Source: Acidobacteriota bacterium
Lineage (GTDB): Bacteria > Acidobacteriota > Terriglobia > Terriglobales > Acidobacteriaceae
Assembly (NCBI GenBank): GCA_021846985.1
Contig: JAJZVX010000006.1
Span: 62,001 to 126,000, forward strand
Direction of reading: 5' to 3'
Length of the DNA: 64,000 nucleotides
Below the pieces are notes generated by a model that made no database searches, was not told the DNA's origin, and saw nothing but the letters and a program-made list of their open reading frames with translations. Below, one piece after another: positions 28,246 to 44,179 of the stretch (position 1 is its first letter; every line of letters starts with the position of its first letter). A program made the position numbers and the translations under genes.

Positions 28246-29643
28246 TTACTCCGTTACCATTCCCTGGCTGTCAGCCTCAAATCCGCCGGCTTCGGCCACC
28301 CGCACCAGCCGGTGCAGGTAGGCTCGCGAAATATGCAGGCTGCGCGCCGCCAGCGTCTTGTTGCCGCGCATTTCGCGAATGGCTTCGGTGGCCAGCCGGA
28401 TTTTGAAGTCGTGAATCTGCTGCTCGAAGCTGCCCGCAGGCATCCCCGCGTTGAGCGCCATGGCCTCTTCCTTGCGCAGGTTTTGCGGCAGGTCCGCCAC
28501 GCGGATCGTATTTCCTTCCGCCAGCACCAGCGCGCGCTGCACCAGGTTCTCCAGTTCGCGCACGTTGCCCGGCCAGCTATGCTCTTGCAGAACGGCCATG
28601 GCCTCCGGCTCAAACCGCTCCACATTCTTCCGGTACATCTGCGCGTAGGTGCGCAGAAAATGACTGGCGATCTGCGGTATGTCCTCGGGATGATCCTGTA
28701 GCGAAGGCGTTTCGATTTTGACTACATTGATCCGGTAGTAGAGATCCTCGCGGAACTTGCTCTTGGCCACCATCTCCGCCAGATTCCGGTTGGTGGCAAA
28801 CACCAGCCTAGCCTTGAGCGGGATCAGCTTGTTGCCGCCCAGGCGGCTGAACTCGCGCTCCTGCAGCACGCGCAGCAACTTAACCTGCGTCATCAGGCTC
28901 AGTTCGCCGATCTCGTCGAGGAAGACAGTGCCATCCCCAGCCTGCTCAAAGAAGCCCGCCCGCGACCCCACCGTGCCCGTGTAAGCGCCTTTCTCGTGCC
29001 CGAAGAGCTCGGCTTCGATGAGCGTCTCGGGAATCGCCCCGCAGGGAACCGCCACAAACGGCCGGCTGGCGCGGCTACCCAGATTATGGATGGCCCGCGC
29101 CACCAGTTCCTTGCCCGTGCCGCTCTGTCCGGTTACCAGCACCGACACATTCAGATCTGCCACGCAGCGCACCAGCCGGTAGACCTGCTGCATCTGCTGG
29201 CTCGATCCGATGATGCGGTCGCAGCTGACAGGCAGCGCCATCCGTTCCTGCACGGTCTCCAGTTGCTGTTTCAGCGCCGCGCTTTCGTGCGCCCTCCGCA
29301 GCATGGTCCTCAGATCGCGGATCGACGGCGGCCGGCGACAGTAGCCGTATGCCCCCAGGCTCACCAGTTCCTCGGCCCGGCGCCGCAATCCGTCATCGGC
29401 TAGAATCACCCACGGCACCGCAGTCCCAAGGTGATCCTGCGCGAAGCCGATACGTTCCCGCACCAGAAGGTGATGGGAGTTCAGGTCCAGAAGAACCACG
29501 TCGCACTCTTGCGCAGAAAGCGCGGGCTCAATCTGGTCAACGTTCGATACCAGGAAGACTTCAAATTCTTTCCCCAAGGCAGAACTCAGAAGAGACTGAA
29601 GCGCACGGTCCTCTGAAAACAAGCAAACACGAGTCATAAACAA
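28246..29643 (-). CDS. Sigma-54-dependent Fis-family response regulator, candidate Tad regulator
   Basis: 465 aa; receiver ([10 protein letters not shown]), AAA+ ([23 protein letters not shown]), C-terminal HTH; divergent from the Tad operon. Confidence 0.93.
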
Positions 29644-29986
29644 GGAAACCCCTGCTCTCGCCGTATGGTGTGCGGCTGGAATTGTAGAGCCATCGTAGCG
29701 GAAGGCATCTTGTCAATCAACTATTCGTACTCTTTTAATAACACTTTAGTAACCATTCCCAGGAGATTACCTGCACTCGCCGTTGTTTTCAGGCTGTTGA
29801 TTCTTGCCATATCTCACTGATTGATCGTTTGTTGTCCATTGATTTCCCTATCCAACCGGTGCTTTCCCAACGGGCGCCCGGACTCTGCTGACCGCAGAGG
29901 CAACCACTCCGAGCAGGATGGGCGCGACGGAGACACCCGCTGTCGCCTCGCGTTGTATATGGACTGCTTCACCCTCCGCTGCAACT

Positions 29987-30010
29987 GTATACATCCGTCT
30001 ACATCCGTTC
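29987..30010 (+). promoter_or_regulatory. Putative enhancer (EBP-binding) site A: GTATACATCCGTCTACATCCGTTC
   Basis: Direct repeat ACATCCGT-CT-ACATCCGT; same motif upstream of two other sigma-54 promoters; ends 57 bp before the -24 GG. Confidence 0.7.
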
Positions 30011-30064
30011 TGGTTTCTTCAACCTAAGTGATTCATAGTAATCGCGTTAAAGGGCCAATGGGTT

Positions 30065-30081
30065 TTGGACAGACGATTGCT
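30065..30081 (+). promoter_or_regulatory. Putative sigma-54 promoter: TTGGACAGACGATTGCT
   Basis: -24 GG and -12 GC with exact 10-nt spacing and full TTGCT -12 element; 45 nt upstream of the first Tad-operon ORF. Confidence 0.72.
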
Positions 30082-30125
30082 GTTCTTATCGGCGTTGGCA
30101 TGGCTGGCAGAGGAGGAAAACGGAG

Positions 30126-30290
30126 ATGAACTGGATTGCCGGATGGTCCGCTCTTGCTGTGATTGCGCTCTCGGCAGCCGTGGGAGCCTGCCTCTCCGAG
30201 TCGCGTATCCGCTTTATTGTCAATTGGCTGCTGCTCCCGGTGCTGTGCGAGGGAGTGCTGCTGCAGCTGTTTTACTTCAACACGCACTGA
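30126..30290 (+). CDS. Small membrane protein, first ORF of the Tad operon
   Basis: 54 aa MNWIAGWSALAVIALSAAVGACLSESRIRFIVNWLLLPVLCEGVLLQLFYFNTH; strong RBS AGAGGAGG; below the ORF-track cutoff. Confidence 0.7.
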   Translation: MNWIAGWSALAVIALSAAVGACLSESRIRFIVNWLLLPVLCEGVLLQLFYFNTH

Positions 30291-30305
30291 ACAGGGAGAC
30301 CGGGA

Positions 30306-30815
30306 ATGCATTCGATTGCATGGTGGCCGACCGTACTGGTTCTGGCTGTTGCCATCTTCACCGATCTGCGCAACCGCCGCATCCCCAACTGGCTGGTGGT
30401 GCCTTTCCTGGTAACGGGAATCGTGCTTTCCGCCTGGCTCCACGGCTGGCACGGCGTGGCATGGAGCCTTGCGGGGCTTGGTCTTGCCGCGCTGCTCTTC
30501 GGCGCGCTGGCCTGGATGGGCGGCATGGGCATGGGCGACGTAAAGCTTTGCGCCGCCATCGGCGCCTGGATTGGGCCTGTGCAGTTGTTCACCGCGCTGG
30601 TACTCACCGGCCTCGCTGGAGGCATGATGGCGCTGGGCTGGGCCGCATGGGGCGGCTTTCTTGGCGACCTCTTCCAAAGCACCGGCGACCTGCTGCTGGG
30701 CGGAAAGAAGCGCAGCCTGCAGCGCGTGCATGTGCTCTCCAACCCGCTGGCGCGCAAGATGCCTTACGCTCCGGCCATCGCCATCGGCACACTTTTGTCC
30801 TTTTTATCCCGCTAA
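30306..30815 (+). CDS. tadV: Type IV/Flp prepilin peptidase (A24 family, CpaA/TadV)
   Basis: FTDLRNRRIPNWLVVPFL and GMGMGDVKL (GxGD) catalytic motifs. Confidence 0.93.
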   Translation: MHSIAWWPTVLVLAVAIFTDLRNRRIPNWLVVPFLVTGIVLSAWLHGWHGVAWSLAGLGLAALLFGALAWMGGMGMGDVKLCAAIGAWIGPVQLFTALVLTGLAGGMMALGWAAWGGFLGDLFQSTGDLLLGGKKRSLQRVHVLSNPLARKMPYAPAIAIGTLLSFLSR

Positions 30816-30830
30816 GGAGAAAACGCGGCT

Positions 30831-32135
30831 TTGCAAGGCAGTTGGACCATCTTCGATTTTGAGGCGGCGCAACCCGCTGCGCCGATTGATTCCGGCGCTG
30901 CGGCCACCCGCACAGGAAGGATTGGCGGCATCGTGAGACCTGCTTCCCACCGCGACCTCGACGACCTCGGCTCCAGCCTGCTGTCTGTCGCGCTCATCAG
31001 TCCCGATACGCAGCGCCGCATGGCGGCGGCCTCAGCGCTGGCCGGCTCTCACGCCTGCGACACACGGGAGTACTCCGGCTACCCAGAGCTCGACGAGGTT
31101 CCCCGCCTTATGCAACAGAATCACGATGTCGTTATCGTCGATCTCGACAGCAATCCGGAGTATGCTCTCGATCTGGTGGAAAGCATTTGCGCGCATGGTT
31201 CGGCCACCGTGATGGTTTGCTCCGCGCAGACCGACCCCGAGCTGATGTTGCGCTGCATGCGCGCCGGCGCTCGCGAGTATCTCACTCTTCCCTTTGCTTC
31301 CGGCGCGCTGGCCGAAGCCCTTGTGCGCGCGTCGGTGCGCCGCCCCTCCGCACATCCGCAAAAGAAGGCCGGTGGACGGCTGCTGGTTTTCTTCGGCGCC
31401 AAAGGCGGCTCCGGCGTCACGATGCTGGCTTCGAACTATGCCGTTATGCTGGCGCGCGAGTCCAGCCAGAGCACCCTGCTCATTGATCTCGATCTGCCCC
31501 TCGGCGACGCCGCCCTCGCCCTCGGCGTCGACGGCCCCTACTCCACCGTCGATGCCCTGCAGAACGCCAACCGCCTGGACGCCAATTTTCTCTCCAAGCT
31601 TCTGCGCAAATACAGCCCCGACCTCTCCGTCCTTGCCGCTCCCGGCAAATTCACGAAATTCGAATCCTCCGCCGAAGCCATCGACCGGCTGATTGCCGTG
31701 GCCCGCAGCTCGTTCGACAACGTGGTCATCGACACCGGATCGCGCCTTGACTTGTTCGGCACCTCGGTCTACGAGGAAGCCAGCACCGTCTATCTCGTTC
31801 TTCAGATTGGCATCCCCGAACTACGCAATTCCAATCGCCTTGTCACGGAGTTCTTCCCGGGACAGCAATCCCGGCTGGAGATCGTGCTCAACCGCTTTGA
31901 ACCCTCCTTGCTCGGTGTCGACGAGGAACACATCGCCAAGGCCCTCACCCGCCCCGCTCAGTGGAAGATTCCCAACGACCGGGGCGTCGCGTATACGTCG
32001 CAAACCACGGCCTCGCCCCTCGCCCTCACTGACCAGCCCATCTCCCGTGCCATCTGCCAGATGGCACGGGCGGCCTGCGGCGCGGTCGAAACTGCGGAAA
32101 AAAAGAAGAAGACCTTCTTGAGCATCTTTGGCTAG
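30831..32135 (+). CDS. tadZ: Tad pilus assembly ATPase/localisation protein (CpaE/TadZ)
   Basis: Receiver-like N-terminal domain followed by MinD/ParA-like domain ([34 protein letters not shown]); TTG start. Confidence 0.92.
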
Positions 32136-32164
32136 CTCCAATCTCACTCCTGGACGGTGTTCCT

Positions 32165-33445
32165 GTGCAGGTACTGGATCTCGAAAAATACAAATCGGAT
32201 ATTCATCGGACGCTGATTGCCAAGCTCGATCTCGAGAAGCTTTCGCGTGTCAACTCCAGCCAGGCTCGCAAAGCGACTGCCGACCTCATCAACGAAATCA
32301 TTCTTGATCAGCGCGTGCCCCTCAGCTTCGAGGAACAGGAGAAAATTCAGTCCAACTTGCTTGACGAGGTCTTCGGCCTCGGCCCGCTCGAGGCGCTGCT
32401 CTCTGATCCCAAGATCTCCGATATTCTCATTAACGGCAGAGACAAGGTCTTCGTAGAGCGCGGCGGCCGCCTGCAGCGCGTGGATACGGTCTTCCGCGAC
32501 GACCGCCATCTGCTGCAGATCATCGACCGCATCGTCTCCCGCGTGGGCCGCCGCGTGGACGAATCCTCGCCCATGGTGGATGCGCGCCTGCCCGACGGCT
32601 CGCGCGTGAACGCCATCATTCCACCGCTTGCTCTCGACGGGCCTTCGATGTCGATCCGCCGCTTCGGCAACGGGCCCGTCGCCGCCAACCAGCTCGTTCA
32701 GCTCAAGAGCATCTCGCCATCCATGATGGAAGTGCTTTCGGCAGCGGTCCGCGCGCGGCTGAGTATTCTCATCTCCGGCGGCACGGGCGCGGGCAAGACC
32801 ACCTTCCTGAACATCCTTTCGCGCAATATTCCGCAGAGCGAACGCATTATCACCATCGAAGACGCCGCCGAACTGCAGCTTGCCCAGGAAAATCTCGTCC
32901 GCCTGGAGACCCGCCCGCCCAATATCGAAGGCCAGGGCGCCATTCGCCAGCGTCAGTTGCTCATCAACTGCCTGCGCATGCGCCCCGACCGCATCATCCT
33001 CGGCGAAGTCCGCGGCGAGGAAGCTTTCGACATGCTGCAGGCCATGAACACCGGACACGAGGGATCAATGGCCACCATCCATGCCAACACCACGCGCGAC
33101 GCGCTTTCCCGGCTGGAATCGATGGTCGCCATGAGCAACCTCAACCTGCCCGAGAAGACCGTCCGCCATCAGATAGCTTCGGCCGTCAACATCGTGGTGC
33201 AGGTGAGCCGCCTCAGCGACGGCAGCCGCAAAGTGATCAGCGTCTCCGAAATCACAGGCATGGAAGAAAACGTCATCACCATGCAGGAAATCTTCACCTT
33301 CGTCAAGAAAGGAATCGGGCCCGACGGCCGCGTAATCGGCGCCTTCGAGCCCACCCACATCCGTCCCCGCTTCCTCGACCGTTTCCGCACGGCGGGCATC
33401 ACTCTTTCACCCGGCGTCTTCGAACAGGCGCTGGAAGTCAACTAA
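32165..33445 (+). CDS. tadA: Secretion ATPase CpaF/TadA
   Basis: [14 protein letters not shown] Walker A, type II/IV secretion ATPase motifs; GTG start. Confidence 0.97.
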
Positions 33446-33461
33446 ACCCTGGGGAGTCTTC

Positions 33462-34433
33462 ATGGCCGTGATCCTCATGCTCGTCTTTCTCGGTGTCTTT
33501 GCCATCACGGCAGGGCTCGCCTATGCCTTCAGCCACGGCTCGGCGCGCCGGTCCAAGAGAGTCGCGGCGGTTCTGGAGTCGGCTTTGGCCAACGGCAACG
33601 AGAAAGCCGCCGAAATCAACCTCGATTTCCGCAAGAACGATTTGCTCAGCGCCGTTCCCTGGCTCAACCGCAGGCTCATCAAGCTCGACCTCGCCGAACG
33701 TCTGCAGGCCTTCCTGGCGCAGGCCGGCCTCAAGTGGACCACCGGCAAGCTCATCCTGCTTTCGCTCGCCGCTCTCGCCGGCGCCTTCTACCTTGTCCAT
33801 CTGCGCACCGGCTCCGTGATCTTTTCACTGCTGTGTGGACTGGCAGCGGGCGCTGCACCCTTCGGTTACGTCGCGTTCAAACGGCAACAGCGCTTCGCCA
33901 AATTCGAGAAGGGTCTGCCCGACGCGCTCGACCTTATCGTCAGTGCACTGCGCGTGGGCCACAGCTTCTCGGCCGCGCTCAGCCTGGTCACACGCGAGTG
34001 TCCAGACCCTGTCGCCAGCGAGTTCCGCACATGTTTCGAAGAACAGAACTTCGGCCTCGAACTCCGCGGCGCCTTCGAAAACCTCGTCTCGCGCGTCCCC
34101 ATCCAGGATCTGCGCATCGCCGTCACCGCCATCCTCATTCAGAAGGAGAGCGGCGGCAACCTCTCCGAGGTCCTCGAAAAAACCGCCTACGTCACTCGTC
34201 AGCGCTTCCGCCTCAAGCGCCAGATCCAGGTGCACACCGCGCAGGGCCGCCTCACCGGGCTCATTCTCACGCTTCTGCCGGTTGTGCTCGGCATCGGCCT
34301 TTATCTCGTCAACCCTTCGGCCATGAGCTTGTTGTGGACGCGCCCCATCGGCATCAAGCTCCTGTACACCGCCGGCGCCATGCTGACCGCCGGCACTCTC
34401 ATCATTCAAAAAATCGTGCGCATGGACGTTTGA
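33462..34433 (+). CDS. tadB: Tad inner-membrane protein TadB (GspF-like)
   Basis: T2SSF domain, gene order A-B-C. Confidence 0.95.
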   Translation: MAVILMLVFLGVFAITAGLAYAFSHGSARRSKRVAAVLESALANGNEKAAEINLDFRKNDLLSAVPWLNRRLIKLDLAERLQAFLAQAGLKWTTGKLILLSLAALAGAFYLVHLRTGSVIFSLLCGLAAGAAPFGYVAFKRQQRFAKFEKGLPDALDLIVSALRVGHSFSAALSLVTRECPDPVASEFRTCFEEQNFGLELRGAFENLVSRVPIQDLRIAVTAILIQKESGGNLSEVLEKTAYVTRQRFRLKRQIQVHTAQGRLTGLILTLLPVVLGIGLYLVNPSAMSLLWTRPIGIKLLYTAGAMLTAGTLIIQKIVRMDV

Positions 34434-34434
34434 T

Positions 34435-35349
34435 ATGGAACTTGCGATCCTCGTCTTCGGTGTCATCTTCCTGCTCATCGCCAGCGGCGGGCTGATGCTC
34501 TTCTATCGCCAAGCCATGATCCAGCGCATCTCCCGCGTGATCATGAAGCGGGAGGAAAAGCAGAAGGGACTGCGCAGCGCCATTCAGCAGACCAGCTCCT
34601 CACTGACCACGGTCCTCGAACAATTCGAGCGCGTGCTTCCCAAGACTCAGGCCGAGGTCTCGATCGTCCAGCAGCGGCTCATTCGCGCCGGATATCGCGG
34701 CGACTCCGCCGTGAAAGTCTTCTATGGCATCAAGGTCATCACCCCGCTGGCTCTCTGCGCCCTTGTGCTCGTCAGCGGCATCGGCCACGGCAACGCCCTG
34801 TTTCTCTTCATCGCCTCCCTGGGTCTTGGCTTTCTCGTGCCCGACTTTGTTCTCGGCAAGATGATCGCGTCCCGTCAGACCAAGGTGCGCCTGGGGCTGC
34901 CCGACGTGCTCGATCTGCTGGTCATTTGCATCGAAGCCGGCCTCGGACTCGACCAGGCCACCGCCCGCACCGCCAAAGAACTGTCCCGCTCCCAGCCGGC
35001 CATCGCCGACGAGCTCAGCGTGGTTGCCCTCGAGCAGCGCGCGGGCCGTCCGCGCTCCGAGTCCTGGCGCCACATGGCCGAACGCACCGACGTCGATGTC
35101 GTACGTAATTTTGTATCCATGCTGGTTCAGGCCGAGCAGTTCGGCACCAGCGTCGCCAAAACTCTGCGCACTCACTCCGACACCCTCCGCACGCAGCGCG
35201 TGCAGTCAGTGGAAGAAAGAGCCGCCAAGACGACCGTCAAGCTGATCTTTCCGCTCGTGATCTTCATTTTTCCCTGCCTGTTCCTGGTCACGCTTGGACC
35301 GGCGGCGATCCTCATGGCAGATTCGTTCAGCAAATACCTCAGCAAGTGA
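34435..35349 (+). CDS. tadC: Tad inner-membrane protein TadC (GspF-like)
   Basis: T2SSF domain, immediately follows tadB. Confidence 0.95.
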   Translation: MELAILVFGVIFLLIASGGLMLFYRQAMIQRISRVIMKREEKQKGLRSAIQQTSSSLTTVLEQFERVLPKTQAEVSIVQQRLIRAGYRGDSAVKVFYGIKVITPLALCALVLVSGIGHGNALFLFIASLGLGFLVPDFVLGKMIASRQTKVRLGLPDVLDLLVICIEAGLGLDQATARTAKELSRSQPAIADELSVVALEQRAGRPRSESWRHMAERTDVDVVRNFVSMLVQAEQFGTSVAKTLRTHSDTLRTQRVQSVEERAAKTTVKLIFPLVIFIFPCLFLVTLGPAAILMADSFSKYLSK

Positions 35350-35367
35350 GAGAAAGGAGAACCGAAC

Positions 35368-35463
35368 ATGGACAACGTTACAATCATTCGCATCGTCTCC
35401 GCTGTGTTGTTCTTCGTTGTGCTGGGATTCGTGATCCAGCGCCGGCGTACCCGCGTCCGCTAG
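35368..35463 (+). CDS. 31-aa single-TM micropeptide after tadC
   Basis: MDNVTIIRIVSAVLFFVVLGFVIQRRRTRVR with RBS AGAAAGGAGA upstream; below the ORF-track cutoff. Confidence 0.6.
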   Translation: MDNVTIIRIVSAVLFFVVLGFVIQRRRTRVR

Positions 35464-35717
35464 CTCGGTTCGGCGCCTGGGGTTGAATGCGCGGCCCGCC
35501 GCGCCCCGACCTTTGCCGTCCGCGCCATCCTCCGGGCCCATGGCTCCCGCCGCGCGCGTGTGCTGCGATTCCGCTATCGCCGTACTCACCGCGCGGCCGG
35601 CCGCCTGTGCCTCGGGCACCTTCCAGCCGCACTTTGCTGCGCATTGCCTAGCGCGATCCGTCAGCCGTTCCCGAGAATCGGCGCCTGCGCGCATGCCGTA
35701 TCTGTGTCGGAGAAGAG

Positions 35718-36575
35718 ATGGAAGCCCGTAGATTCTGCGTATACAACCAGGCTAGCGAATGTTTCCTCAGCCTGGGCGTCATCGCCACCGAGACCATACC
35801 GGCGCAGCTCAAGGCATCAGCCAGCAGGCAAGCGTACCCCTACGACGAGGGCTTCTGGATCGTGCTCTCCAGCGAACTGCACCGCGCCCGCCTGGCCGCG
35901 CCGGCGCCCCTCGATCTTATTTATCTCGACAAGAACTATCGCGTTGTTCATCTCGTCGAGTCGTTTCACCGTCTTCGCATGACGATCCCCGGAGCAGGCG
36001 CCGCCAGCGTTCTGGCCCTGCCCGCCCACGCCATTTACTCGTCCCAGACCCAGGTTGGCCATCAGCTCGTGATCTGCGCCACCGAAGAGCTCGCCTTCCA
36101 GCTTAGCGGCGCTCCCGGATTCGACCCACCTGCCGCCCGCCATGCAGCGACGCACGAATCCAGAAACGTCAACTGGTTTGCCACCTATCTTTCCCATGGC
36201 GCTGCGCACAATCGCCGCCAGGCGCAACGCCAGGTGTGGCCCCGGCTGGTGGCGTACGACTGGGATGGAGCCGAGTTAGCCGTGCATGGCATTCGCGACG
36301 CCTCCGCCACTGGCCTCTATCTGCTCACTGAGAAGCGCTGGCCCCTCGGTGCCCGCGTGTGGATGACTCTGCAACGCACCGACGGCGCCGAAGAAAGCGC
36401 CGAGTCCTCCATTACCGTGCAGATGGAAGTGACCCGCTGGGGCTCCGACGGCGTTGGACTCGCTTTTGTTTCGCCCGAGAACGCGGAACATGGCCGCCGC
36501 GCGGAAACCGACCCGGCCGCCTGCGAAGAGGACGAGCCTCTAGCCGCAGCGGCCAAATCCGGCTTTATCAATTGA
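35718..36575 (+). CDS. DUF192-PilZ fusion protein
   Basis: N-terminus VYNQASECFLSLGV...PLDLIYLDKNYRVVHLVESF (DUF192-like), C-terminus RRQAQRQVWPRLVAYDWDGAELAVHGIRDASATGLYLLTEKRWPLGARVWMTL... (PilZ-like). Confidence 0.8.
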   Translation: MEARRFCVYNQASECFLSLGVIATETIPAQLKASASRQAYPYDEGFWIVLSSELHRARLAAPAPLDLIYLDKNYRVVHLVESFHRLRMTIPGAGAASVLALPAHAIYSSQTQVGHQLVICATEELAFQLSGAPGFDPPAARHAATHESRNVNWFATYLSHGAAHNRRQAQRQVWPRLVAYDWDGAELAVHGIRDASATGLYLLTEKRWPLGARVWMTLQRTDGAEESAESSITVQMEVTRWGSDGVGLAFVSPENAEHGRRAETDPAACEEDEPLAAAAKSGFIN

Positions 36576-36603
36576 CCCGCGGCGGGTTCATCCAGGAGGA
36601 GCC

Positions 36604-37863
36604 GTGAAACAGATCGGCAGCGAAAACGGACAAATGCTTATCATGGTGGCACTCTGCCTGCCCGTGCTGATGGGCTTTGTGGCGCTGGCCGTGGATGTGG
36701 GCGTGATGTTCCACACCAAGCGCCAATTGCAGATTGCCGCCGATGCCGCCGCCATCGGCGCGGCCCTCGATTACAAGTTTAACGGCTCGCTCTCGTCAGC
36801 CCAGCAGGCCGGGCTCAACGCCGCATCCACGAACGGCGTCACCAATGGGGTCAACGGCGCCACTGTCGCCATTAACATGCCTCCGGTCGACGGCCCCAAC
36901 GCCGGCGTCGCCGGCCTCATTGAAGCTGTCGTCACCCAGCCCAATCCGACCTTCTTCCTCAGCGTTCTCAACACCAACTCCGTCACCATCGGCGCCCGGG
37001 CCATCTCCGGCTCCGGACCCGGCGACGGATGTGTCTGGGCTCTGGCCAAGTCCGGCAGCGATATCTCCATTACCGGCTCCGGCACCATCTCCATCCCCGG
37101 CTGCGAGGTCTTCGACAACTCTGACAGCACCAACGCCCTCACCCTTACCGGCAGCGGCTCTCTCACCGCCAAGGCCATCGGCATCGTTGGCAACTACAGC
37201 AAAACCGGCTCTGGCAGCATCTATCCCACTCCCGTCACCGGCACCGCGCCCGTTGCCGATCCACTTTCCTCGCTCCAGTTTCCCGCGGTCAACACCGGCG
37301 GCTGCTCTTCCGCAGTCAGCTACAGCGACAGCAGCGCCCACACCATCGGACCGGGCTGCTACAACGGCATCTCCAACACCGGTAGCGGCTCCCTCACGCT
37401 CACACCCGGCAACTACACCATCAACGGTAACTTTAGCTCCACCGGTAGCGGCGGCATCAACTTCGGCGCCGGCACCTACATCATCACTGGCTCGCTCAGC
37501 ATCAGCGGTTCCGGCCCCCTGAACGGAACCGGCGTGACCTTCTTTACCCAGGGCACAACCAGCGTCTCAGGAAGCAGCGGCCTCAACCTCTCCGCGCCTA
37601 CCTCCGGCCCCGACGACGGTCTTCTCTTCTTCCAGTCCAGGAACGACACCAGCTCAATCACGATCAGCGGCTCCAGTAACATGAGCCTCCAAGGCATTAT
37701 TTATGCTCCTTCCTCTGCCCTCAGCTTCAGCGGCTCCGGCTCCGCCAACATCTACACCGATCTCATCGTCGATTCCGTCTCGTTTACCGGAAGCACCCCC
37801 TTCACGAACTACTCCACCATCAACAGCTCTTCCGTGCTGGGAAAAATCGGATTGGAGGAGTAA
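36604..37863 (+). CDS. tadG: TadG-like pilus assembly protein with Gly/Ser-rich beta-helix-like C-terminus
   Basis: N-terminus SENGQMLIMVALCLPVLMGFVALAVDVGVMFHTKRQLQIAADAAAIGAA; remainder composed of ITGSGS-type repeats. Confidence 0.85.
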   Translation: MKQIGSENGQMLIMVALCLPVLMGFVALAVDVGVMFHTKRQLQIAADAAAIGAALDYKFNGSLSSAQQAGLNAASTNGVTNGVNGATVAINMPPVDGPNAGVAGLIEAVVTQPNPTFFLSVLNTNSVTIGARAISGSGPGDGCVWALAKSGSDISITGSGTISIPGCEVFDNSDSTNALTLTGSGSLTAKAIGIVGNYSKTGSGSIYPTPVTGTAPVADPLSSLQFPAVNTGGCSSAVSYSDSSAHTIGPGCYNGISNTGSGSLTLTPGNYTINGNFSSTGSGGINFGAGTYIITGSLSISGSGPLNGTGVTFFTQGTTSVSGSSGLNLSAPTSGPDDGLLFFQSRNDTSSITISGSSNMSLQGIIYAPSSALSFSGSGSANIYTDLIVDSVSFTGSTPFTNYSTINSSSVLGKIGLEE

Positions 37864-37867
37864 TCCC

Positions 37868-38350
37868 ATGCGCAAAACAGGAGTACGCCATCGCAAGGAG
37901 CGCCGTTCTTCTTTCCGCCAGCCGGCGATGGAGAATGGCCAGGCTCTCGTCGAGCTCGCTCTCTCCCTGCCTCTGCTCATGCTGCTTCTACTCGGCGCCG
38001 CCGAGTTCGCCCGGGGGGCTTATGCGGCCATCGAAGTCTCTGACGCGGCCAAGGCCGGCGTCCAGTACGGCGCCCAGAACGCCACCGCCGCCTCCGACAC
38101 CACCGGCGTTCAAGATGCCGCTACCGCCGGCGCGCCCGACATCACCCTTGGCTCCACAACTGTCTCCATCTCCTGCATCTGCTCCGACGGCTCCGCCTCC
38201 ACCTGCCTGCGCACCGACTGCCCCACTTCGCACATTGAAGAAACTCTTTCGGTGCAGACGCAAACCACCTTCGATCCCCTCATCTATGCGCCCGGCTTGC
38301 CCAATTCCTTCACGCTCTATGGACAGGCCACGCAGAAGGTGCTGCAATGA
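37868..38350 (+). CDS. tadE: TadE-family minor pseudopilin
   Basis: ENGQALVELALSLPLLMLLLLGAAEFARGAYAAIEVSDAAKAGVQYGA. Confidence 0.88.
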   Translation: MRKTGVRHRKERRSSFRQPAMENGQALVELALSLPLLMLLLLGAAEFARGAYAAIEVSDAAKAGVQYGAQNATAASDTTGVQDAATAGAPDITLGSTTVSISCICSDGSASTCLRTDCPTSHIEETLSVQTQTTFDPLIYAPGLPNSFTLYGQATQKVLQ

Positions 38351-38874
38351 CCTCCCCGGCGCTCGCCAGACAAACAAAATGCCGTTCCCGGCGCCTCCGC
38401 GGGCTTCTTCACGCCAACCGCGGATCCGCGCTTGTTGAAACGGCTTTTTCTGCCAGCCTCCTGATCGTCATGCTCATTGGCATGATGGAGATGACTCTCG
38501 CTCTTTACGCCTACCTTTTCGTTTCCGACGCGGCGCGCGAGGCCACGCGTTACGCCATCGTCCGTGGCTCCACTTCCTGCGTCAACACTCCCAATCTTCC
38601 CGGTTGCGATGCCAGCGCCGCCGACATTCAGAACTACCTCCAGACCCTCGGCTATCCGGCCCTGATGGCCGGCAACCTCACCTCGACCACCACCTGGCTC
38701 ACCGTCAGCTCCGGTCCGCCTGCCACATGGTCTTCCTGCACCAGCGGCACCTGCAATGCTCCCGGCAACCTCGTCGAAGTCACGGTGCAATATGCGTTCC
38801 CTCTCAGCATCCCCTTCGTACCCGCCTCTACGCTCACTTTGTCGAGCACCTCAGAGATGGTCATTGCGCAATAG
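38347..38874 (+). CDS. TadE-family minor pseudopilin (second copy)
   Basis: NRGSALVETAFSASLLIVMLIGMMEMTLALYAYLFVSDAAREATRYAIVRG; overlaps the upstream gene (ATGA). Confidence 0.87.
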   Translation: MTSPALARQTKCRSRRLRGLLHANRGSALVETAFSASLLIVMLIGMMEMTLALYAYLFVSDAAREATRYAIVRGSTSCVNTPNLPGCDASAADIQNYLQTLGYPALMAGNLTSTTTWLTVSSGPPATWSSCTSGTCNAPGNLVEVTVQYAFPLSIPFVPASTLTLSSTSEMVIAQ

Positions 38875-38916
38875 CTCGGCTCCGGAGTTCACACGTCCAT
38901 TTGAAGATGGAGCCCC

Positions 38917-38943
38917 ATGGCATTTCTCCGGGGGGAATGCCAT
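38917..38943. terminator. Hairpin ATGGCATTTCTCCGGGGGGAATGCCAT between convergent genes
   Basis: 8-bp perfect stem plus inner G-C/G-U pairs, lies between convergent tadE and the TonB-like gene; no following T tract, so terminator function is inferred. Confidence 0.5.
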
Positions 38944-38994
38944 CCGGCCAGCCTGTTTTGCGAACCCGGCAGCTCTGCAGCCGCTACAGCCGCT

Positions 38995-40329
38995 CTATTC
39001 CGTCTCGTTCGGGATCACCAGCACCACTTCCACCGCAGCCAGCGCCCCGTTCTGCATTGCCGGCCGGAACCTCCATTGCGCCAACGACTGCAACACCAGC
39101 GTCGCCTGCGGCGTCTGCGGCGGATACACCAGGCTCAGCCGCTCGAACCGCCCCTGGCGATTCACGATGCCGTGCAACACCATCGCATCCGCGTCCAGCA
39201 GCGCAGGAATCAGGTGCGGCCGCACCACATCGTAGGGCCACGGCGCATCGAGAGCCGCCGCGCCGCCTGTCGCACGGGCGTCCGCTTCCGGCAGAGAGTA
39301 CTGAAGAATCCAGTTCCGCGTCTGCCCCACCCGCAAATACACCGTATAGGCCATGCGCCCGCCCCATATCCGCAGCAGTTCTGGATACTCATCCTCCAGC
39401 GACGAGCCCACCACCACCACGCCAAACCGCCCGTCCTTGGGAAACGTCAGGTGATCCGTCTCGGCCGCGCCCAGCGCGCCGCTTTGCCGCGCAGCGCCCG
39501 CGGCGCCTGAGCCCTTCGACTTGGCCGCCGTGGCCGCTTTACCGCTCGATCCATCCTGCTCCGGTCCTCCATCGATTCCAGAATTGCTCTCCACCAGCCC
39601 CTGAGCTCTGGTTTTCTCGATCAGGTCCGGCCGCGTCTGGTTGGCCGGCGGCAGCGTTGCCGTGCCTTTCTTCATGCGCACGTCCGAAAGCGAAAGCGCG
39701 GCGGCCGGCGTCGGCTCTTTCGTCGACTCCGACGGCATGGACGGCGCCATTTGCAACAGTTCCTGCCCTTCCACCTTCACCGGCGTGGTGGTTCCCGGCA
39801 ACAGCGCATGGAACGGCACTTGCGCATCTGTCGCCGTCAAGCCCACATCACTCAACGTCAGCTCTTCGTTGGGTTCCACCAGGCTCGGCCGCGCCTTAGC
39901 GGCTGATGGCGGCTGCGGCCGCGGCAGCACAATCTCTTTCACCAGCTTCTTTTTCGGCGTCCAGACGGCCACCGCCGGAACCGGGATCTTCTCCTTGAGC
40001 TTCAGATTCGGCGGCAGATCCGGTTGCACCAGCGTTTGAAGAGCCGCTTCAAATTGCGGCAACTCCCAAGGCTCCGTCCCTCCCGCTGGCTGGCTCTTCA
40101 CATCCGCACCGTCACCCGCCTGCGCTTTGCCGATTTTGGGCGTGCGCGCCGCCACTGGCTCCCGCAGACGCAACTCCACCTGCCGGACGGCATAGCGATC
40201 ATTCAACCATGGATCGCGAACCAGCGGCGCATGCGTCAGCGTATACACCGCCACAACCGCCACCAGGCCGTGCACCACCATCGACAGCGCATAGGGCGCC
40301 GCGCCCGCGCCTTCTTCCGGCCGGTCCAC
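38995..40329 (-). CDS. TonB-like (energy transducer C-terminal domain) protein, antisense within the Tad locus
   Basis: 444 aa; N-terminal TM, Pro/charged linker, C-terminus MVLHGIVNRQGRFERLSLVYPPQTPQATLVLQSLAQWRFRPAMQNGALAAVEVVLVIP; GTG start. Confidence 0.75.
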   Translation of the reverse strand: MDRPEEGAGAAPYALSMVVHGLVAVVAVYTLTHAPLVRDPWLNDRYAVRQVELRLREPVAARTPKIGKAQAGDGADVKSQPAGGTEPWELPQFEAALQTLVQPDLPPNLKLKEKIPVPAVAVWTPKKKLVKEIVLPRPQPPSAAKARPSLVEPNEELTLSDVGLTATDAQVPFHALLPGTTTPVKVEGQELLQMAPSMPSESTKEPTPAAALSLSDVRMKKGTATLPPANQTRPDLIEKTRAQGLVESNSGIDGGPEQDGSSGKAATAAKSKGSGAAGAARQSGALGAAETDHLTFPKDGRFGVVVVGSSLEDEYPELLRIWGGRMAYTVYLRVGQTRNWILQYSLPEADARATGGAAALDAPWPYDVVRPHLIPALLDADAMVLHGIVNRQGRFERLSLVYPPQTPQATLVLQSLAQWRFRPAMQNGALAAVEVVLVIPNETE

Positions 40330-40600
40330 GAACAGCGATTGCAGGGAGGAAGTTTTCGTACGTCCAAACCTCGTCCATCAGATGCGCATCCGCGAGAATG
40401 CCTTGCTCCCGGTCCCTTGCCTCAGGAGACACTCCTCTCTTCGTTGCACTGCGATTGCCACTTCCACGCGCGGCGGCCATCAGCCCGCCCAGTCCGCGCC
40501 ATTTTTCTGCAAACTCCCGGGAAGCGCGGTAAAACGGCCTCTGCTGCCGCTGGCCGCATGCCGCCGTCGCGTCTGGTTGGCGACACAGGAGCCGCCCATG

Positions 40601-40624
40601 GTAAACATCCGTTCACACTCGTTC
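40601..40624 (+). promoter_or_regulatory. Putative enhancer site B: GTAAACATCCGTTCACACTCGTTC
   Basis: 19/24 identical to site A; ends 57 bp before the -24 GG of the cpaB promoter. Confidence 0.72.
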
Positions 40625-40678
40625 CGGCTTCTGCCTGCCTAATCTCCTTATTCCGCGCATGATTACCGCCTTTTGCCT

Positions 40679-40695
40679 GTGGCACGGCAATTGCA
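40679..40695 (+). promoter_or_regulatory. Putative sigma-54 promoter: GTGGCACGGCAATTGCA (exact TGGCACG-N4-TTGCA)
   Basis: Perfect consensus -24/-12 element 54 nt upstream of cpaB. Confidence 0.85.
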
Positions 40696-40748
40696 ATCAC
40701 CACTCCGGCATCTCCGGGCCAGGGCCGCATCGCCCACAAGGAAACCGC

Positions 40749-41600
40749 ATGAATCGACGACTGTTTACCATTCTCGCCATCTCGTTCCTCGTGGCCTGCG
40801 TCAGCTCACTTCTGGTCTACCGCATGGTCGGCAATCGCGTGAGTTCCGTCCGCAAACAGGCCACCACGCGTGTGGTAGCGGCCGCCACTGACATCAAGAT
40901 CGGCACGGTGCTCAGTGCTGCTAATCTCACCACCGTAGACATCGCCAGTACGCTGCCTGAAGGAGCCATCCTGAAGCCCGCCGACGCTATCGGCCGCGGT
41001 GTCGTAACCGACCTCTACCGCGGCGAGCCGATTCTCAACAATCGCCTTGCTCCGCTCGGTTCCGGCGGAGGCTTGGCCGCCACCATCCGCAAGGGTATGC
41101 GCGCACTTGCCGTCAAGGTCGATGAGGTCGTGGGCGTCGCCGGCTTTGTCACACCCGGCATGCGCGTCGATGTTCTTGTCTCCGGCGATCCCCCGGGCGC
41201 CTTTAACCCCACTTCCGGCGCCGAGGTCCGCACCCTCCTCCAAAACATCGAGGTGCTCTCCGCCGGAACCGACATCCAAAAGGACACCGACGGCAAGCCT
41301 CAGCAGGTGCACGTAGTCAACCTTCTGGTGACGCCGGAGCAGGCCGAGGTTCTTTCTCTCGCCAGCAATCACACCCACTATCAGATCCAGCTTGTCCTCA
41401 GAAACCCTCTCGACACGCAGGTCGCCAAGGTGCAGGGTCTTTCGATGTCCACTCTCTTCGGCGGCGCGCCGACCGCGCCTGCCCACAAAACCGGACTCGC
41501 CCATCCGCGCCGCCAGTCCACACCGGTCTACTCCGTCGTTGTCTTCAACGGAGCGCAGCGCAGTGTGCAGAACTTTGAATTGCACGAGGAAAAGCAGTGA
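40749..41600 (+). CDS. cpaB: Flp pilus assembly protein CpaB/RcpC
   Basis: N-terminal TM, SAF domain (TRVVAAATDIKIGTVLSAANLTTVDIA), RcpC domain. Confidence 0.94.
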   Translation: MNRRLFTILAISFLVACVSSLLVYRMVGNRVSSVRKQATTRVVAAATDIKIGTVLSAANLTTVDIASTLPEGAILKPADAIGRGVVTDLYRGEPILNNRLAPLGSGGGLAATIRKGMRALAVKVDEVVGVAGFVTPGMRVDVLVSGDPPGAFNPTSGAEVRTLLQNIEVLSAGTDIQKDTDGKPQQVHVVNLLVTPEQAEVLSLASNHTHYQIQLVLRNPLDTQVAKVQGLSMSTLFGGAPTAPAHKTGLAHPRRQSTPVYSVVVFNGAQRSVQNFELHEEKQ

Positions 41601-43156
41601 GAGCCCGCTTCCATCTTCGATTGCCCATTCTCGGCGCCTCCTTCTGCTGCATGGGCATGTGCCCGGCGCTTCAGGCGCAGGCTCTGACCATGCCGCTGCA
41701 TTCCTATGCGGCTCCCGTCGCCGACCGCGCCGACGACCTTGTTGTCGCTGCCGGCAAATCCGTGATTATTGATTGCGCACACCCCATCGAGCGCGTCGCG
41801 GTTGGTCTGGGCGATTACGCCGAGGCGATTGCCGTTACCCGCAATGAGATCCTGGTGAACGGCAAGACTCCCGGCGTGACCAGCCTCATCGTATGGGAGC
41901 AGGGAGGTCTCCGCCAGTTCTTCAATGTCAAGATCCTGGTGGGCGCGGATCAGACAGAAGACCATCTCGCGGGCATCCGCCGCGAGCTTGCCAGACAGCT
42001 TCCCGGACAACCCATCCGCGTCAGTTTTGAAAACAACACTCTCTTTCTCTCCGGCACGGCTGACGATCTCAACAGCTCTGACCGCGCCCTCCAGATTGCC
42101 TCCACCTCCGGCAAGGTCGTCAACCTGCTCAATGTAAAGGTACCGCCCGCCGAGCCGCAGATTCTTCTCAAGGTGATTTTCGCCAGCGTTGACCGCATCC
42201 GCAGCAACCAACTCGGCATGAACCTGTTCTCTACCGGGCTGGGCAACACCATAGGCGGCACTACGACCGGCCAGTTCTCTCCGCCCACGGTTGCGCTGCC
42301 CAGCGCCACCAGCGGCGCCACCGCCACGCTTTCCAACGAGCTCAACCTCTTCGCTTTCTTCCCCGGCCTTAATCTGGGAGCCACCATTCAAGCCCTTGAA
42401 ACCGAGGGCCTGGTCCAGGTGCTGGCCGAGCCCAACGTCCTGGCGCAAAACGGCAAACAAGCCAGCTTCCTGGCCGGGGGCGAGTATCCCTATCCCGTCG
42501 TGCAGGGCAACACAGGCGTTGTGAGCGGCTCCTCCGTGACCATTGAATTCAAGGAGTACGGCGTGCGCCTCAACTTCATCCCCACCATCACGCCGCGCGG
42601 CACCATCCGTCTGCAAGTTGCTCCCGAGGTCAGCTCGCTTGACTTCACCAACGCCATCACCATCTCCGGTTTCCAGGTTCCCGCCATCGACGTGCGCAAC
42701 GTCAACACGGAAGTGGAACTGGCGCAGGGGCAGAGCTTCGCCATTGGCGGTCTGCTCGACAACCGCGAAACCGAAACCTTTGAGAAGATTCCTTTCCTCG
42801 GCGACATCCCCATCCTCGGCAAGTTCTTCCAGTCCATCAACAAGACCAAGTCCAACACCGAACTTATCGTCATCGTTACCCCAGAGATCGTCGAACCGAT
42901 CAAACGGGGCGGGCCTTTGCCGCAGTTGAAATTCCCCGCCACCTTTTTACCGCCGAACTCCGGCATTCCCATGCACACTCCTGATGCCCTGCCAGCCGGC
43001 GTGCCGCCGCCACCGCCCAGCACCATGCCAGTGGAAAAGCTCATTGAAAGCATGAAACCGGAGAAACCGCTCAGCATCGACAACACTTCAAACGGCCCTG
43101 CCGGCTCAATGGGATCCGGATCGTCCATCGGTTCCTCTCCGGGCTCTTCGCAATGA
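41597..43156 (+). CDS. cpaC: Tad secretin CpaC/RcpA
   Basis: Pilus-formation N-terminal domain and secretin core (VPAIDVRNVNTEVELAQGQSFAIGGLLDNR...ELIVIVTPEIVEP). Confidence 0.95.
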   Translation: MRARFHLRLPILGASFCCMGMCPALQAQALTMPLHSYAAPVADRADDLVVAAGKSVIIDCAHPIERVAVGLGDYAEAIAVTRNEILVNGKTPGVTSLIVWEQGGLRQFFNVKILVGADQTEDHLAGIRRELARQLPGQPIRVSFENNTLFLSGTADDLNSSDRALQIASTSGKVVNLLNVKVPPAEPQILLKVIFASVDRIRSNQLGMNLFSTGLGNTIGGTTTGQFSPPTVALPSATSGATATLSNELNLFAFFPGLNLGATIQALETEGLVQVLAEPNVLAQNGKQASFLAGGEYPYPVVQGNTGVVSGSSVTIEFKEYGVRLNFIPTITPRGTIRLQVAPEVSSLDFTNAITISGFQVPAIDVRNVNTEVELAQGQSFAIGGLLDNRETETFEKIPFLGDIPILGKFFQSINKTKSNTELIVIVTPEIVEPIKRGGPLPQLKFPATFLPPNSGIPMHTPDALPAGVPPPPPSTMPVEKLIESMKPEKPLSIDNTSNGPAGSMGSGSSIGSSPGSSQ

Positions 43157-43278
43157 GTCCGCGCACGGAGCGAGCGGGCTCACGACGTCCGCCGTACCGT
43201 ACCACCGCGCCCCGCGATCGTTGCCCAACTGCCCCTGACAAGGCAAACTTCCCCGCAACCATAATGGAGGACAACCCA

Positions 43279-43755
43279 ATGAAACGCTCCAGATCGATGC
43301 TGTCACACATCATCACCTGGCTGATTCACCAGAAACAAAGACCCGACATCCGCCTGCGCATCTCCAACCTTACTCGCCGGACCATCCTCGCCAGTTCCGC
43401 CGAGCTGGCCGACAGCGGCCAAAAACGCAGAAAAGGCCTCCTGGGCCGCAACACGCTCGCACCCGGCGAAGGTCTCTGGATCCTTCCCTGCGAGGCCGTT
43501 CACACCTTCGGCATGCGCTTTCCCATCGACCTCATCTACCTGGACCGCAATCACCACATCAAGAAGGTCCGCAGCAACGTTCGCCCGTGGCGCCTGTCGG
43601 CCTGCTTCACGGCCCACTCCGTGATCGAGCTCGCCAGCGGCACCATTCGCCAAACGCAAACGCAGCCCGGCGACAGGATCGAGTTTGCCTCCACGCCTTT
43701 TGCCGAGGAAGCTTCCTCCGCTTTTTCCGCCCATGCCCTGGGCGTCGCAGATTAA
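43279..43755 (+). CDS. DUF192 family protein
   Basis: RKGLLGRNTLAPGEGLWILPCEAVHTFGMRFPIDLIYLDRNHHIKKVRSNVRPWRLS; alternative start at 43264. Confidence 0.87.
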   Translation: MKRSRSMLSHIITWLIHQKQRPDIRLRISNLTRRTILASSAELADSGQKRRKGLLGRNTLAPGEGLWILPCEAVHTFGMRFPIDLIYLDRNHHIKKVRSNVRPWRLSACFTAHSVIELASGTIRQTQTQPGDRIEFASTPFAEEASSAFSAHALGVAD

Positions 43756-43817
43756 CCCGGCTGCCGCTCAAACACGCGCCGCCACCTGTAAACCCGGCGA
43801 ACCTGCCCGAACGCTTT

Positions 43818-43841
43818 GTATACGGCCGTTCACACACCGCA
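43818..43841 (+). promoter_or_regulatory. Putative enhancer site C: GTATACGGCCGTTCACACACCGCA
   Basis: 16/24 identical to site B, 14/24 to site A; ends 58 bp before the -24 GG of the flp promoter. Confidence 0.65.
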
Positions 43842-43896
43842 TCCCGCGTACCGCCTCTAAGTTGTTGATTTAGCGCAGAACCCGGCAGCACGCAGA

Positions 43897-43913
43897 ATGG
43901 TCATCCACTTGCT
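43897..43913 (+). promoter_or_regulatory. Putative sigma-54 promoter: ATGGTCATCCACTTGCT
   Basis: -24 TGG and -12 TTGCT with exact GG-N10-GC spacing, 63 nt upstream of flp. Confidence 0.72.
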
Positions 43914-43975: not shown

Positions 43976-44179
43976 ATGCAGGATATGCTGTTGAAGTTCT
44001 ACATCAAGGCGCAGAACCTGATGACGGACGAAGACGGTCAGGATCTGGTCGAGTATGCCCTGGTCGTCTCGCTGCTCTCTCTGGCCGCCACTACCGCCAT
44101 GGGCTCGCTGGCCACTGCCATTAACAGCGCCTTCACCGCCATCGGCGACAAGCTGACCGCAGCTCTGCCCTCCAGCTAA
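43976..44179 (+). CDS. flp: Flp/Fap-type major pilin
   Basis: 67 aa; EDGQDLVEYALVVSLLSLAATTAMGSLATAINSAFTAIGDKLTAAL with G|QDLVEY processing motif. Confidence 0.94.
   Translation: MQDMLLKFYIKAQNLMTDEDGQDLVEYALVVSLLSLAATTAMGSLATAINSAFTAIGDKLTAALPSS

Follow-up and report, generated by a model that had tools for sequence, protein, structure and literature searches.

We analysed a stretch of 64,000 nucleotides (the window) on contig JAJZVX010000006.1 from the 3.79 Mb genome of an Acidobacteriaceae bacterium (assembly GCA_021846985.1), in which a Tad/Flp pilus locus is encoded. The Tad pilus is a hair-like surface fibre, and three separate gene units of the locus in these soil Acidobacteria carry the same conserved, predicted on-switch. 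Unit A (30306-35349, plus strand; Pfam) encodes the prepilin peptidase, TadZ, the TadA ATPase, TadB and TadC. Unit B (40731-43156, plus strand; Pfam and NCBIfam TIGR03177) encodes CpaB/RcpC and the secretin, and unit C (43976-44179, plus strand) encodes a Flp pilin of 67 amino acids (Flp_Fap E-value 2e-6, with 27.9 bits against a curated cut-off of 32.2). A Flp pilin is also found downstream of the secretin in relatives. TadE/G-like proteins are encoded in the locus as well (Pfam/NCBIfam), so that CpaB, secretin, TadA, TadB/C, TadE/G, prepilin peptidase and Flp pilin are all present. Divergently from unit A, on the minus strand, lies a gene (28246-29643; Sigma54_activat E-value 4e-68) for an NtrC-type bacterial enhancer-binding protein (bEBP) with a degenerate receiver and a Fis-type helix-turn-helix (HTH), the candidate activator. 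The genome contains a single sigma-54 gene (rpoN; Sigma54_DBD E-value 4e-57), 13 strong bEBPs (Sigma54_activat) and three HU/IHF-family proteins, one of them above the NCBI cut-off for IHF-beta. As set out below, one regulator encoded next door very probably reads the switch at all three Tad units.

Each unit is preceded by a proximal predicted activator site, a weaker distal copy of it, an IHF-type site and a sigma-54 -24/-12 element. Upstream of the prepilin peptidase-tadZABC operon, site A (TGTATACATCCGTCTACA; 29986-30003, plus strand) matches 13 of 14 positions of the dyad TGTAWAC-N4-GTWTACA. Its distal copy A2 (TGTATATGGACTGCTTCA; 29954-29971, plus strand) lies 32 bp upstream of A and scores 19.0 bits in a matrix built from relatives' second copies (consensus TGTATACgcccCGcttCA), a score reached by none of 5000 random window positions. 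Site B, upstream of cpaB-secretin (GGTAAACATCCGTTCACA; 40600-40617, plus strand; 12/14), and site C, upstream of the Flp pilin (TGTATACGGCCGTTCACA; 43817-43834, plus strand; 13/14), each have a copy 30 bp further upstream: B2 (CGTCTGGTTGGCGACACA; 40570-40587, plus strand; 11.1 bits) and C2 (TGTAAACCCGGCGAACCT; 43787-43804, plus strand; 11.7 bits), both with P ~0.0004 against random window positions. Of random window positions, 99.9% or more score below each of A2, B2 and C2.

The sigma-54 elements were judged against a TGGCAC-N5-TTGCW-like form with fixed GG to GC spacing. The cpaB element (TGGCACGGCAATTGCA; 40680-40695, plus strand) is a perfect consensus and the only match without mismatch in the window. 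The element of operon A (TGGACAGACGATTGCT; 30066-30081, plus strand) matches 8 of 11 general consensus positions; its -24 box, TGGACA, is weak by that measure and fits the family-specific form TTTGG..ggacaATTGCT found in 47 relatives. The pilin element (TGGTCATCCACTTGCT; 43898-43913, plus strand) has a good -12 box and a weak -24 box (TGGTCA), and keeps the core TGG...ACTTGCT of the pilin-class consensus TGGCa...caCTTGCt. Between the activator sites and the -24 box, each promoter contains an IHF-type WATCAANNNNTTR site on the minus strand. At promoter A it is TAAGTGATTCATA (30025-30037), 41 bp before -24, with 8 of 9 matches to YAANNNNTTGATW and with conserved orientation and position. At promoter C it is TAAGTTGTTGATT (43858-43870), 40 bp before -24, with 9 of 9 matches, and at promoter B it is TAATCTCCTTATT (40640-40652), also 40 bp before -24, with only 7 of 9 matches at the conserved position. 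Across the promoters compared, all three classes are enriched for the YAANNNNTTGATW form at about 38-42 bp ahead of -24, with a single preferred orientation. Sites with at least 8 of 9 matches number 19 against 2.2 expected in 56 promoters, 9 against 0.4 in 19 and 11 against 0.7 in 17, and the opposite orientation shows little or no enrichment.

The arrangement is specific to the Tad units of this genome. A first-pass annotation of the window had described a 24-bp motif ending 57, 57 and 58 bp before the GG of three sigma-54 elements; we recovered the same coordinates, sequences and spacings, with the GG at 30067, 40681 and 43899. Allowing up to two mismatches, TGTAWACNNNNGTWTACA has exactly three matches in the window, at 29986, 40600 and 43817, against 0.03 in shuffled sequence. 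A composite of GTAWAC-N4-GTNNAC, a gap of 40-70 and GG-N9-TGC occurs in the whole genome at A, B and C only, and the reversed pattern, used as a control, not at all; the motif alone, at one mismatch, occurs in only two more places. Among 301 Acidobacteriaceae genomes, 45 contain the composite, in many cases as two or three copies on one contig, ~3-15 kb apart, with no match to the reversed control. No match was found in 24 genomes outside the genus group of the window.

The same elements are conserved upstream of orthologous genes. We collected 80 named Acidobacteriaceae loci around TadC, which together with the window amount to 1.38 Mb; 33 genomes in the window's genus group, its own included, encode close orthologs of the secretin. 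A dyad with at least 12 of 14 matches precedes the prepilin peptidase in 57 of 69 upstream regions (shuffles, 0.05), cpaB in 19 of 54 and the Flp pilin in 17 of 21 (shuffles, ~0.1 per set overall). The 1.38 Mb contain 100 such strong dyads, and 93 of them lie within 350 bp upstream of a prepilin peptidase, cpaB or Flp pilin gene, in zones that make up 3.7% of the loci sequence. Markov-resampled sequence of equal size contains none. The first-pass annotation had named two checks that could overturn its own claim, a scan of the genome and a comparison of the regions upstream of orthologous Tad units, and both came out in its favour. We take it as firm that the predicted three-promoter regulatory architecture is real and well conserved.

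We then compared the sites themselves. The consensus over 90 sites of relatives is (T/C)GTAWACA-N2-CGT-NN-ACAC, and the conserved element is 18 bp long, built from a pair of GTnnACa half-sites at a spacing of 10 bp. From position +19 on, no column exceeds 0.43 bit, so the length of 24 bp first ascribed to the motif is not supported, nor is a third half-site (the final GTTC in A and B), which is not conserved across the 90 sites; we rejected this longer form and retained the 18-bp element. The repeat every 10 bp is genuine, and only its description as a direct repeat is in doubt: GTnnAC is its own reverse complement, and direct and inverted repeats are therefore inseparable. The bases flanking the half-sites favour the direct reading, and the perfect palindromes at many pilin promoters favour the inverted one. 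Fis-type proteins bind as dimers, which also favours an inverted reading. The weaker second copy suspected at A is confirmed by its conservation in 47 of 56 relatives, at offsets from -31 to -35, and a weaker second copy 30-35 bp upstream is present in all three promoter classes, giving the paired sites typical of upstream activating sites for bEBPs. Such sites are conserved, lie ~80-150 bp upstream of the start and keep a fixed distance to the promoter; here the dyad centre stands ~70 bp ahead of -24 in every class, and most promoters place it 67-73 bp from the T of that box. The departing distances (35-36, 46, 58-61, 80-84 and 91 bp) fall near whole helical turns, which is no more than suggestive (Rayleigh p 0.003-0.1, depending on the assumed period).

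The candidate activator aligns with NtrC1 (1ny5) over the receiver and AAA+ domain, and with ZraR (1ojl) over the AAA+ and HTH domains. Where a relative's locus extends that far, an ortholog is almost always encoded next to site A, in divergent orientation. The HTH of these orthologs is nearly invariant in proteins that are otherwise 51-78% identical, and it is unlike the HTHs of the other bEBPs read in the window's genome. The sigma-54 interaction loop of the AAA+ domain (GAFTGA) is present as GAYTGT in the window and as GAFTGT in most orthologs; two loci, L072 and L075 (the latter from Terriglobus albidus), have DSFTGT instead. In the receiver, alignment to NtrC1 shows that Asp53 is kept and that the acidic pair, Thr and Lys positions are altered. 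The Pfam receiver model (Response_reg) stays below its cut-off, and the acidic pair, Asp, Thr/Ser and Lys of a functional phosphoreceiver are, as judged from the sequence, incomplete. With several phosphorylation residues missing, the protein may be controlled in some way other than classical phosphorylation. Some relatives have an extra gene between the activator and site A, which we considered as a sensor and rejected; the products read are membrane-protein-like, with nothing kinase-like by eye. Among 61 genomes, orthologs of the activator (E-values up to 1e-110) and the composite are both confined to the genus group of the window. Three near-complete genomes (G001, G002 and G009) have a Tad secretin and neither the activator nor the composite, and three others (G004, G018 and G032) have the activator and no composite match, with a dyad at longer spacing. 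The co-occurrence of activator and composite gives a Fisher p of ~0.0005, which depends on ancestry. Position, the near-invariant HTH and the joint absence in one clade point to the 28246-29643 protein as the probable binder.

We propose the following mechanism, to which we assign a probability of about 85%. At each Tad unit, two activator sites 30-33 bp apart (about three helical turns), the distal one weak and the proximal one strong, would be bound by dimers of the 28246-29643 protein, which would then oligomerise. With the proximal site centred ~70 bp and the bend site ~40 bp before -24, IHF would bend the DNA in between, and the AAA+ ring of the activator would open the sigma-54 RNA polymerase. 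The genes for pilus assembly, secretin and pilin would thus be switched on together, the sites acting, as we infer, as activating elements. The conserved sites and the NtrC-type gene divergent beside A support the earlier suggestion of a single activator working from a phased upstream site on the assembly, secretin and pilin units.

Several observations weigh against this proposal. Any of the other strong bEBPs in the genome could bind, since there are 13 in total, and a more distant lineage (L146, TadC 52% identity) has a dyad upstream of its prepilin peptidase with no activator gene in the stretch examined. The co-absence of activator and composite comes mainly from one clade, so the Fisher p is not independent of ancestry; because the relatives share ancestry, the co-occurrence points to the divergent protein and does not prove it. 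In addition, 35 of 54 loci have no dyad at the cpaB promoter. Given the number of bEBPs and the case of L146, the sites could be real sigma-54 enhancers that are read by another bEBP of the genome, with the divergent gene a bystander or a second regulator. We consider this unlikely, given that the activator gene stands beside site A so consistently with a near-invariant HTH and that gene and composite are missing together from G001, G002 and G009.

A protein outside the bEBP family, for example a CRP-like or nucleoid protein, might also bind the 18-bp element, which would then merely co-occur with sigma-54 promoters. The outer TGT...ACA letters do recall the sites of other regulators, but the tight spacing to -24/-12, the paired copies at a distance of about three turns and the IHF-type site between these and -24 form the standard enhancer layout, which makes such a protein improbable. 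The many letters common to A and B could further be read as chance similarity or as a recent duplication of upstream regions inside one locus. This is the least credible explanation of all, as the sites recur at orthologous positions in dozens of species, with flanks specific to each class, and shuffled sequence yields almost no sites. Chance similarity in particular is rejected by the reversed control (0), the Markov-resampled loci (0) and the shuffles (0.03), in line with the first-pass judgement that chance was hard to invoke. We prefer the three enhancer-type promoters read by the divergent bEBP.

Predicted membership of cpaB in this regulon is lineage-restricted. In nine of the loci whose cpaB upstream region lacks the dyad (L080, L085, L088, L091, L095, L110, L113, L127 and L130), a sigma-70-like TGnTATACT or TACACT box stands where the site used to be or close by, in some cases together with a remnant -24/-12. 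A switch of promoter type is a possible explanation, and cpaB reads as a unit that may be leaving the regulon. The window's genome has the composite at the Tad units alone, and relatives also have it before additional Flp pilins, TadG-like proteins, a PilZ-domain protein, a WXXGXW-repeat protein and a GAF/PAS histidine kinase. The PilZ-domain target (L158, in G019 contig C8) suggests a link to cyclic di-GMP. In two genomes (L166 in G007:C260 and L167 in G003:C342), the site, an IHF-like element and a sigma-54 promoter precede the GAF/PAS histidine kinase, whose domains were scanned in L167, and this kinase is a possible partner of the activator. We rejected it as a conserved target, since the full promoter of G003 and G007 is not present at the homologue in the window's genome: the nearest one, which is 69% identical (G000:C1:20145-21773), lacks such a site in the flank examined. 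In two further loci (L160 in G019:C256 and L161 in G030:C124), a composite promoter stands before the gene for a secreted protein, after which comes one for a protein that is pilus-chaperone-like by eye; neither of the two proteins scanned in L160 matches Pfam. Taken more widely, these data could describe a family-wide Acidobacteriaceae sigma-54 regulon for surface fibres under one phosphorylation-degenerate bEBP, comprising Tad assembly, secretin and pilin, with extra targets in some species and cpaB lost to sigma-70-type control in some clades. We regard this wider view as an even bet.

Other features of the locus were also noted. Downstream of promoter A and ahead of the prepilin peptidase gene there is a 54-codon open reading frame for a small hydrophobic protein (30126-30290); the leader of 311 bp, longer here and in close relatives, may owe its length to it. 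Two DUF192-related proteins are encoded inside the Tad locus (35718-36575 and 43153-43755) and are kept there in relatives. In one relative (L169, G011:C35:50057), promoter A occurs a second time within the locus, before the DUF192 gene and together with a truncated prepilin peptidase, which represents a local duplication.

Acidobacteriota are abundant soil bacteria that are hard to grow. With the binding site defined precisely, a candidate protein named, a regulon predicted and natural losses at hand, the control of surface attachment becomes directly testable in these bacteria.

Among known pilus regulators, PilS-PilR drives the type IVa pilin gene pilA through sigma-54. As there, an enhancer-binding protein would drive a pilin gene here; unlike there, the targets are Tad genes, three units stand under one site family, and the site sequence is presumably unlike that of PilR. 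Both PilS-PilR, as a type IV pilus regulator, and PprA-PprB, which controls tad/flp in Pseudomonas aeruginosa, appear in PMC10418997. PprB differs from the Acidobacteriaceae Tad system in being, as that paper presents it, a two-component response regulator influenced by RpoS and SigX, with no sigma-54 enhancer layout in the relevant passages. In Pectobacterium, flp/tad is under two-component regulation (PMC3767616); it shares with our locus a dedicated regulator of Tad genes, but VasH, the sigma-54 activator tested there, left flp/tad expression unchanged. In the open-licence literature we found no description of sigma-54 control of Tad pili and no enhancer-binding regulon in Acidobacteriota, which is weak evidence in both cases, as most subscription papers lie outside that literature. 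The promoter type itself is textbook: bEBPs act from upstream activating sites through IHF-assisted looping and AAA+ activation (PMC7175178). The "code" once suggested for this locus is an overstatement; what we describe is a regulon whose promoters are laid out in the standard sigma-54 manner. The Tad circuit resembles NtrC-type bEBP systems (PMC7175178) in its predicted upstream activating sites for paired HTH domains, its IHF looping and an AAA+ activator acting on sigma-54 polymerase. It differs from them in its site sequence, its target genes and its degenerate receiver, as judged from sequence, and it appears to be a previously undescribed control circuit built on a known type of switch.

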